DNA of 64,000 bases, taken from the NCBI RefSeq assembly GCF_029433335.1, contig NZ_JAQTHX010000001.1, positions 868,001 through 932,000 on the forward strand, in the 5' to 3' direction. Every line of letters begins with the position of its first letter. Within the stretch, counting starts at the first letter, position 1. Below the pieces are notes generated by a model, which did not search any database, was not told the origin of the DNA, and saw nothing but the letters and a program-made list of their open reading frames with translations. Both the position numbers and the translations under genes were made by a program. This DNA is from Bifidobacterium sp. ESL0745. GTDB taxonomy: Bacteria > Actinomycetota > Actinomycetes > Actinomycetales > Bifidobacteriaceae. Of the stretch, positions 1,496-51,508 are shown one piece after another.

Positions 1496-1670
1496 GTGGT
1501 GGGGAGGGATATACGATGTCCGACACACGCTCTGGGCTTTGGCGTTAAGCGTTCAGTCCAGTGGATTGAACGTAGCCAAAGTGAGCGCAAAACCCGAGCA
1601 CGAAAGTAAAATCTCCAGATTTTACAGGCCAAGTCTTTACGGTCTGACATCGCATATCCCTCCCCACCAC
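1496..1670 (+). repeat. Long hairpin element, copy 1 (long-core form, forward)
   Basis: Arms 1496-1520 and 1646-1670 are inverted repeats matching at 24 of 25 positions. The 125-nt interior contains nested inverted repeats: a CAGTCC/GGATTG pair at about 1555-1568, CTTTGGC/GCCAAAG flanking it, and AAAATCT/AGATTTT at about 1609-1624. The same interior motifs occur, reverse-complemented, in copy 6 (43980-44149), with substitutions that keep pairing. Unlike the other copies it lacks an outer TTGGTC flank. It lies inside the suf gene run between sufC and sufS. Together with copy 2 it fills most of the gene-free stretch 1452-1994; between them (1671-1851) I see only AT-rich sequence. Confidence 0.75.
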
Positions 1671-1851: not shown

Positions 1852-1948
1852 GCGGATTGGGAAAGAATGCCTTGTTGAGGAGTAAAGCTCGGCCTACCGG
1901 CCTTGAGGGTTCCGAAACAAGACATTCTTTCCCAATCCGCGACCAACC
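1852..1948 (-). repeat. Long hairpin element, copy 2 (short-core form, reverse)
   Basis: Arms 1852-1876 and 1916-1940 pair over 25 nt with one G-T wobble. The 39-nt core carries GGCCTACCGGCC, nearly identical to the core of copy 4 at 11831-11869 and related, in reverse complement, to copies 3 and 5. The element is followed by GACCAAC, the shared outer flank. It faces copy 1 in opposite orientation. No run of T follows either arm, so it does not look like an ordinary intrinsic terminator. Confidence 0.78.
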
Positions 1949-11653: not shown

Positions 11654-11749
11654 GTTGGTCGCGGGTTTGGCGGGATATACAATGTTCTGGACACTCAAGG
11701 CCGTTCGGCCAAGCCTACGCCAGAACATCGCATATCCCGCCAAACCCGC
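11654..11749 (+). repeat. Long hairpin element, copy 3 (short-core form, forward)
   Basis: Begins with the outer flank GTTGGTC. Arms 11661-11690 and 11720-11749 pair at 28 of 30 positions. The 29-nt core includes ACTCAAGGCCGTTCGGCC, itself palindromic and shared with copy 5. Lies after the prepilin peptidase stop. Sequence just inside the element (TTATGTTGCGT) recurs, inverted, next to copy 2. Confidence 0.78.
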
Positions 11750-11804: not shown

Positions 11805-11902
11805 GTGGATTTGGGGGAATATGCGATGCTGAGGCGTAAAGCTTGGCCTACCGGCCTGGAGGGTGCCGAAGCATTGTATATTCCCCCAAATCCACGACCA
11901 AC
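11805..11902 (-). repeat. Long hairpin element, copy 4 (short-core form, reverse)
   Basis: Arms 11805-11830 and 11870-11895 pair over 26 nt, with two positions kept as G-T wobbles. Core 11831-11869 differs from the copy 2 core at only about five positions. Followed by GACCAAC. With copy 3 it forms an inverted pair filling most of the gap between the convergent prepilin peptidase and mltG genes (11615-11951). Confidence 0.78.
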
Positions 11903-28759: not shown

Positions 28760-28782
28760 CTTAATTGCCGACATAATTGCGT

Positions 28783-28836
28783 ATTTGCGTCTTTTCCAGC
28801 ATTAACCACGGTATATCTGCTGGAAAAGACGTAAAT
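28783..28836. repeat. Tandem hairpin A (19-bp stem)
   Basis: 28783-28801 pairs with 28818-28836 (one G-T). Upper stem ends TTTTCCAGCA. The 16-nt loop is close to the reverse complement of the loop in the next hairpin (GATAT...GTTA shared), so the two are copies of one element in opposite orientation. Confidence 0.7.
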
Positions 28837-28845
28837 AGAACGTTT

Positions 28846-28899
28846 AAATGCGCTTTTTCCAGCAGATATGCACCTGTTAGTGCTGGAAAAAGCGCATTT
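28846..28899 (+). repeat. Tandem hairpin B (19-bp stem), likely terminator
   Basis: 28846-28864 pairs perfectly with 28881-28899; loop of 16 nt. Stem top TTTTTCCAGCA is shared with hairpin A while the base differs with compensating changes. The right arm ends in ATTTTTA, so on the plus strand it could terminate transcription from the permease. Confidence 0.7.
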
Positions 28900-28930: not shown

Positions 28931-28975
28931 ATAAGACCGGCGGCCTTACGCATTACGTAAAACTACCGGTCTTAT
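28931..28975 (-). terminator. Terminator of the M20 peptidase gene
   Basis: ATAAGACCGG (28931-28940) pairs with CCGGTCTTAT (28966-28975), with an inner TTACG/CGTAA stem in the loop. On the minus strand the right side continues TTATTTTTC, a T-run, 60 nt after the stop codon of the peptidase gene. Confidence 0.7.
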
Positions 28976-43823: not shown

Positions 43824-43914
43824 TTGGTCGTTGGAGGCTGGGATAAACTTTCACGGGACACTCAAGGCCGTTCGGCCAAGCTTACGCCCGAGAAAGTTCA
43901 TCCCAGCTTCCAAC
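43824..43914 (+). repeat. Long hairpin element, copy 5 (short-core form, forward)
   Basis: Begins TTGGTC (43824-43829). Arms 43830-43852 and 43892-43914 pair at 21-22 of 23 positions. Core 43853-43891 holds ACTCAAGGCCGTTCGGCC, identical to copy 3. Its arm AAACTTTCACGGGACACT recurs, inverted, in copy 6, so these two share arm sequence as well as core type. Confidence 0.78.
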
Positions 43915-43979
43915 TCATGTTCCGACAGAATTTATTCGAGTTGTTATTCAAAGAATTGAAATCTCTATTTGATTAGTTG

Positions 43980-44149
43980 GGGGTTTGGATAAACTTTCTG
44001 TGACGTAAGACACGGCCGTGCAAAATCATAGATTTTGTCTTCGCGCGATTTACGCGCTCACTTCGCCTACAGGCAATCCACTGGATTGCCCGCTTAACGG
44101 CTCAGCCGCAGTGTCCCGTGAAAGTTTATTCCAACCCCACACGACCAAC
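43980..44149 (-). repeat. Long hairpin element, copy 6 (long-core form, reverse)
   Basis: Arms 43980-43998 and 44120-44138 pair over 19 nt with one mismatch and one wobble, and GACCAAC follows at 44143-44149. The long interior is the reverse complement of the copy 1 interior type: CCAGTGGATTG hairpin, CGTTAAGCG, GAAGTGAGCGC and AAAATC/GATTTT. Where copy 1 has TT...AA closing the CCAGTGG stem, copy 6 has GG...CC. Copies 5 and 6 occupy most of the gene-free stretch 43769-44292 between pta and ackA. The remaining 44150-44292 has only a CCGTGG/CCACGG stem (44245-44262) before ackA. Confidence 0.75.
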
Positions 44150-51450: not shown

Positions 51451-51508
51451 TAGTTGGGGAAATGGAAGGCAAACCAATTAACTGGTTTGCCTTCCATTTC
51501 CCCAACTA
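51451..51508. repeat. Perfect 26-bp inverted repeat after the MerR gene
   Basis: 51451-51476 and 51483-51508 are exact reverse complements, 6-nt loop ATTAAC. Lies between convergent genes, so it may stop transcription from both sides, but the stem is much longer than usual and no T-run follows. It lacks the TTGGTC flank and GGCC core of the six-copy hairpin family. Confidence 0.8.

Follow-up and report, generated by a model that had tools for sequence, protein, structure and literature searches.

The window analysed here, that is, the whole stretch of 64,000 nucleotides (nt) from Bifidobacterium sp. ESL0745, contains six long hairpins, and on reading the sequence we found all six where the original prediction had placed them, as three pairs at loci A, B and C. 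At locus A a long-core element on the minus strand (A1, 1496..1670, core at 1525-1641) is paired with a short-core element on the plus strand (A2, 1852..1940), which scores 93 bits (L006:1497-1603) with R1, a covariance model built from 11 short-core copies of this genome, and which is followed by a GACCAA tag at 1941..1946 (plus strand). Locus B consists of two short-core elements, B1 (11661..11749, minus strand, R1 98.1 bits), preceded by a TTGGTC tag at 11655..11660 (plus strand), and B2 (11805..11895, plus strand, R1 112.9 bits), followed by GACCAA at 11896..11901 (plus strand). Between pta and ackA lies C1 (43830..43914, minus strand, R1 73.3 bits), a short-core element for which orthologues were compared, with its TTGGTC tag at 43824..43829 (plus strand); its partner C2 (43980..44138, plus strand) is long-cored and is tagged by GACCAA at 44143..44148 (plus strand). 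Every one of the three loci has one element in each orientation, as had been proposed. The TTGGTC/GACCAA outer end is present in five of the six hairpins, the tag of A1 being altered and lacking TTGGTC, and the inner T(T/C)ATGT flank was recovered in four (A2, B1, B2 and C1) and is missing from the other two. The GGCC core described for these hairpins holds for the four short-core copies and needs correcting in one respect, namely that there are two core types, the cores between the arms of A1 and C2 measuring 117 nt and about 121 nt, respectively. No T run directly follows the stem in any of the six, as read in the flanks on both strands, and in this they are unlike intrinsic terminators.

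The window holds other palindromes. A loop-less near-perfect one with two 29-bp halves at 51451-51508 could be a terminator or a relative that lacks the core; two adjoining hairpins with common TTTTCCAGCA/TGCTGGAAAA arms occupy 28782-28899 and fall by eye outside the paired-hairpin family, and a further hairpin follows them at 28931-28975.

With the strand set by the core, the unit consists, in order, of an inner flank of the ACATRA or GTTGA type, a 5' arm rich in G, the core, a 3' arm and an outer tag (GACCAAC or CGTCAG type). The arms are about 20-30 bp long, vary between copies and are complementary within each copy. Cores fall into a short class of 25-42 nt (about 29 nt) and a long class of about 110-121 nt (about 115 nt, with several stems). 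The core is strongly conserved as GTAA(A)G(A)CTTGGCC-NNNN-GGCC, and this conservation spans the genus while the stem covaries; the long core has further stems inside the GGCC/GGCC stem, one of them a covarying palindrome. Our detector called 199 elements in 135 loci, of which the 194 scoring at least 18 were kept and five lower ones dropped; it gave no call in L082, L083 and L152, nor for the long unit of L005. Twenty-one of the 194 have the long core. Tags include GACCAAC, CGTCA, GACTACC, GGTCACC and others, and CGTCA or CGCCA stands near the 3' end of the stem in 91 of the 194, a few of these within the arm and so not a tag.

Some copies depart from this plan. The same core occurs beside extra tag classes (GGTCGTT, GACTACCCGT, GACTCACG) in L089:4457-4548, L253, L255 and L295, and a larger, different hairpin structure encloses a long-core-like sequence at about 1495-1700 of L346 (contig 2 of the ESL0745 genome). 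Beside the pair at locus E of that genome, a separate copy that looks like the long core's inner part (L003, 1615-1727) is found in ESL0745 only among 10 genomes compared, flanked by TCA at both ends where the relatives read TCA once; the long insert may be mobile in its own right.

The arms were said to differ between copies and yet to pair within each, and this is borne out. In an alignment of 68 distinct sequences from 52 loci (73 before duplicates were removed), 96.6% of cells are paired as compared with 76.0% after shuffling, and two-sided changes occur in 24 of 31 pairs. The covariation score is 0.562, against 0.166 for shuffled and 0.051-0.118 for slid versions, with no shuffle equalling the observed values. 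For the stem by itself 98.2% are paired and 21 of 23 arm pairs show two-sided changes in the same 68 sequences. The whole long element, for which A1 and C2 are among the 23 aligned sequences, has two-sided changes in 29 of 46 predicted pairs.

The family extends well beyond the window. The B pair as BLAST query matched 26 places in its own genome at E<=1, most of them in 11 loci, with pairs at A, B, C, D, E, F, G and J (and a decayed third unit besides the pair at F) and single elements at H, I and K. One weak BLAST place, L025, has no element by eye and no R1 match, and L026 is likewise without an R1 match. R1 gave 21 matches in this genome at E<=1, several being opposite-strand readings of one element, and added a twelfth locus, a single long-core element on contig 3 (L052, 72.2 bits). 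The covariance-model search proposed with the original prediction thus returned further copies both here and in relatives: within the genus at least 71 of 112 genomes (E<=0.001), within the family at least 83 of 189, spread over 5 of 16 genera (E<=1e-4), and at least 9 of 396 evenly drawn genomes of the order, all nine of them Bifidobacterium (E<=1e-6). These counts are lower bounds, as stricter filters apply when more than 40 genomes are searched and weak matches are lost. Higher R1 scores set apart a close clade, consisting of ESL0745 (G000) and G082-G093; such strains come from bees. The best identity between any two of the 17 elements of ESL0745 is 83%, and copies 96-97% identical occur at separate loci within one genome in G083, G087 and G091. 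Searches of phages, plasmids (one 281-base query each) and viral contigs (one pattern) gave no match.

We note that the paired arrangement is strongly directional. Among 60 neighbours less than 500 bp apart, 57 are tag-out, three are tandem and none is tag-in, with doublet spacers of 40-458 bp (median 107). Two of the tandem cases belong to a triple at locus B in G083 and the third is in B. myosotis; single elements are common. Arm likeness within doublets does not exceed the between-pair level (57 pairs, z 0.4-1.3, 60 shuffles), and at loci C and E the arms within the doublet look shared by eye. As regards gene context, none of the 34 clusters with both sides called lies between divergent genes (for 76 of the 110 clusters that were scored, a side was left uncalled), and among 26 control gaps of the window one of the nine with both sides called is divergent. 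Clusters face gene 3' ends by 95:38, a trend similar to the 18:12 of the control. The tag of single elements points toward the 3' end of the neighbouring gene by 26:9 (p 0.006, with orthologues counted apart). The effect on the host would likely be that of a local obstacle or stabiliser for intergenic transcription or replication.

The comparison of orthologous sites, which had been suggested as a check, yielded element-free sites at both B and C. At locus C, compared in 10 of 13 genomes (in G090, G085 and G091 the flanks are not in one locus), the pair is present in ESL0745 and G093, a unit with a remnant in G084, one unit in G089 and G082, and nothing in five of the 10. Across 80 named ackA loci (the best 80 of 99; 1.611 Mb; R1 at E<=0.01) there are 12 R1 matches, two of them opposite-strand readings, leaving 10 elements in nine loci, which in every case precede ackA by at most 450 bp, seven along the genes and three against; Bifidobacterium sp. 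ESL0784, ESL0682 and ESL0763, B. bohemicum and B. bombi are named among these best 80 loci. The pta-ackA gap is either a preferred or a very old site. That the element replaces a pta terminator was considered and found no support: an intrinsic terminator was called in none of nine loci with an element and in four of 64 without, under a strict rule that overlooks some visible by eye, seven of the 80 loci having no adjacent pta.

Locus B, compared in 11 of 13 genomes (the flanks of G088 and G093 are not in one locus), has seven pairs, one triple, one remnant and no element in two of the 11. In five of eight carrier genomes the whole pair is inverted between the same flanking genes. Identity to the ESL0745 composite, inverted and in line respectively, is 87 and 73% in G089, 90 and 73% in G082, 86 and 70% in G092, 88 and 71% in G087 and 82 and 72% in G084, as compared with a composite in G090 that is in line (88% vs 75% inverted) and with 74% between the ESL0745 composite and its own inverse. 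The triple of G083 is a mosaic, its flanks showing a core turned round inside its arms. All 10 genomes compared at locus E (no such region was obtained from G082, G086 and G093) carry units there: the left unit has the long core in ESL0745 and G084, the short core in seven and is absent from G087, while on the right the long core occurs in G087, G091 and G083 and the short one in seven. Cores have been swapped inside like arms at C2, E left and E right, the arms of a slot mostly remaining recognisable despite the change of core; the right E units of G084 and G088 have quite different arms. Sites lacking the element at B and C differ across the entire intergenic gap, and a target duplication of a unit was nowhere readable.

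The arms themselves were tallied over six orthologous slots with 28 elements, taking all pairwise comparisons, which are not independent, and only orthologous-looking units (those of G087, both of G084 and the right one of G088 at locus E were left out). In this tally 1740 pairs are unchanged, 120 changed on both sides and kept Watson-Crick pairing, two changed on both sides and did not, and 70 changed on one side, giving 59 G.U, five A.C and six others; a further 59 base pairs were gained or lost in both arms, some of these being alignment ends. Locus E has runs of three adjacent two-sided changes as well as clear matched length differences. Such runs and length changes are hard to obtain by independent point mutations that compensate one another, and for this reason template switching is favoured here. 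In the literature we consulted, template switching at quasi-palindromes is credited with making the arms alike, with compensatory changes of several bases and with inverting the spacer (PMC8794818, PMC8604942).

The account we favour, with somewhat better than even confidence, is that these are REP/BIME-like non-coding palindromic DNA repeats of the Bifidobacteriaceae, with arms kept alike by template switching. One arm would template the other during replication, and complementarity would chiefly be kept in this way. Such switching would copy multi-base and length changes, which are observed, into both arms, and might at times flip a core or a whole doublet, as the observed inversions suggest; units or parts would in addition be exchanged between loci, by ectopic conversion or by transposition, as the core swaps suggest. 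The main argument for template switching is drawn from the pattern of change. The original prediction had offered a choice between a BIME-like or MITE-like mobile family with arm-to-arm correction and a structured RNA. The former is the better supported, given the dispersed copies, the tag-out pairs and the absent orthologous sites together with inversion in place and the matched multi-base and length changes in both arms, no transposition event of a unit with target duplication being seen. Against our favoured account, a one-strand mismatch near the core survives the homogenisation of the arms, and template switching alone does not explain it. On the same side stand the unreadable target duplication, the lack of a Y1 transposase in ESL0745 and the two Y1-bearing genomes that have no elements, the best identity of only 83% among the ESL0745 elements, the arm likeness within doublets that does not rise above that between pairs, and a lean of one-sided arm differences to G.U.

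Alternatively, the elements might be a structured RNA, cis-acting or small, with the stem selected for pairing and with the long core as the full domain and the short one as its trimmed form. We think this rather unlikely, even though it would account for a core conserved genus-wide beside a covarying stem, for the several stems of the long element with two-sided changes in 29 of its 46 predicted pairs (23 sequences) and for the mismatch at the fixed inner positions, which in 206 of 206 cases is a G.T whose G belongs to the 5' arm. One-sided differences elsewhere in the arms lean to G.U where DNA symmetry would expect about 1:1, and this excess speaks for one-strand selection, so that some strand preference in the arms is likely. 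The ratio of G.U to A.C differs by method: 35:18 at outer positions (pairs 15-26 from the core, summed from the table), 93:38 when the fixed positions defined by motif are set aside, 16:12 outside two fixed positions (counted from the table) and 59:5 in the pairwise tally; the detector itself scored G.U more mildly than A.C. We rejected selection on the arms as RNA only, and note that in the outer arms G.U is only about twice A.C. An RNA is further opposed by the elements at pta-ackA, which face both ways across species (7 with the genes, 3 against, in the best 80 of 99 loci), by the opposite directions within a doublet, such that any one transcript reads one element as antisense, and by the matched length changes and whole-pair inversions. 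A match to a catalogued RNA family was sought: Rfam gave none at gathering score in the window, and at E<=1 three loci returned only mir-5882, at 31.3 bits where the gathering score is 95.

The retained mismatch allows another reading. A G.T with G on the 5' arm occurs at one or more of pairs 9-14 in 134 of 171 close-clade elements and in three of 23 distant ones, and at locus E it stayed while neighbouring pairs changed on both sides, as if something kept it in place. When the strand is read inward from the tag, the mismatch turns TATGCGATG into TATACAATG, with the tag taken as a weak -35. Each close-clade element might thus hold an RNA polymerase promoter running from the tag into the hairpin, with doublets as convergent promoters, a possibility to which we give little credence. 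In the window, TACAAT lies in the outer arm of B1 at 11678..11683 (plus strand), 17 bp past the weakly -35-like TTGGTC, where it overlies one-strand mismatches (A.C on the plus strand, G.T on the other), and in the outer arm of B2 at 11873..11878 (minus strand), 17 bp from the B2 tag. At least nine of 12 matches to TTGACA-N16..18-TATAAT were found on the tag-to-core strand in 45 of 167 distinct elements, as compared with none of 167 on the other strand and one of 167 after shuffling. TACAAT exists through the retained mismatch, and in a second arm sequence at locus E the kept mismatch gives TATACT or CATACT. Yet the 45 share descent and so are not independent, only two of the 17 ESL0745 elements are promoter-like, B1 and B2 each reaching 8 of 12 under the cut of 9, and in distant species one of 23 is promoter-like with one of 23 on the other strand as well, which argues against an ancestral role. 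The wobble could equally serve an RNA or a DNA-binding protein. Frpo single-strand hairpin promoters offer a model that we considered for these elements. We would go so far as to speculate, as a long shot, on a transposase-less genus-wide family renewed by template switching, in which the close clade made one arm an inward promoter, selection holding the mismatched -10 box against the steady homogenisation of the arms, and the doublets became convergent hairpin promoters.

A classical MITE, derived by deletion from a DDE-type insertion sequence that has terminal inverted repeats, is very improbable. Elements of the GACCAAC type share about 20 nt of outer flank outside the stem (28 elements, including orthologues; about 9 nt in CGTCA-type elements), and the flanks of A2, B1, B2 and C1 agree by reading, which gives the doublet inverted ends; against this, single elements are common, there are several tag classes, no target duplication is readable and no parent element emerged from a search that was for Y1 transposases only. 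A site-specific inversion switch built on the paired hairpins is hardly credible, since the inversion of the locus B pair in five of eight carriers would arise anyway by recombination or template switching at inverted repeats, and there are just 40-458 bp spacers and no gene between the units. Two other candidates were rejected: an autonomous element between hairpins about 1.5 kb apart in G091, where the gap reads as an ordinary gene resembling tRNA-dihydrouridine synthase, and an integron attC site, the two flanks of which do not look like complementary R boxes.

On our favoured account of template-switched palindromic repeats, the REP/BIME class comes nearest, and the family differs from it in the length of the stem as well as in core, tag and enzyme. 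The sections consulted of Di Nocera et al. 2013 (PMC3733652) describe REPs as dispersed extragenic palindromes with a one-sided conserved tag, often forming head-head dimers whose spacers run to tens of bases, some of them made of units with different loops, and Table 1 there gives GTAG REPs stems of 5-13 bp and loops of 2-20 nt. The likeness to REP/BIME and to REPINs (GTAG, RAYT-linked) lies in dispersed tagged palindromes with tag-out dimers predominating (57 of 60 here); the differences are stems of 20-30 bp of largely free sequence as opposed to the published 5-13 bp, a core of about 29 or about 115 nt as opposed to loops of 2-20 nt, and neither a GTAG tag nor a Y1 gene in the ESL0745 genome. 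A RAYT/IS200-like transposase gene had been named as something to look for; the search of this genome, which is about 97% complete, was negative for Y1, and Y1_Tnp was found in seven of 112 genomes of the genus, five with elements and two without, and on its absence here and rarity in the genus we rejected such a link. CGTC REPs, according to the same sections (PMC3733652), have stems of 8-9 bp, loops of 4-5 and a CCA tail, predominantly form head-head dimers with tail-tail ones rare, have no dedicated transposase, and are reported from five phyla, Actinobacteria not being one of them (neither that name nor Bifidobacterium has a match in the text). They share with our family the head-head dimers and, in 91 of 194 elements, CGTCA/CGCCA; they differ in that our family has the CGTC tag in part only, with a far longer stem and with GACCAAC, GACTACC and GGTCACC tags as well. 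Template-switched quasi-palindromes, as treated in the portions consulted of PMC8794818 and PMC8604942, resemble our elements in arm homogenisation, compensatory multi-base change and spacer inversion, and are the mark of a mutational process and not a repeat family; here that process would act on a family conserved genus-wide. We thus call the family BIME-like by arrangement, with no membership in the BIMEs implied.

The double-hairpin elements of Allomyces mitochondria are short mobile hairpin units with compensated stems; they are mitochondrial and of other sequence. In searches of the open-licence PubMed Central literature, none of the titles and abstract openings returned describes a family like the bifidobacterial one, and the term Bifidobacterium has no match in PMC3733652, PMC12306157, PMC4666352 and PMC2864571 except in one reference title of the last. 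This large repeat family appears to be unnamed.

Our finding adds a large repeat family, present in at least 83 of 189 genomes of the Bifidobacteriaceae, to a lineage for which we found none described. It also carries a caution, in that covariation by itself is no proof of an RNA. Whether compensated stems reflect template switching or selection is a long-standing dilemma, as set out in the part of PMC8794818 consulted. Here the orthologous copies can be aligned locus by locus, which makes them a natural test between the two, and arms that change in step between species provide a natural record of DNA copying errors.
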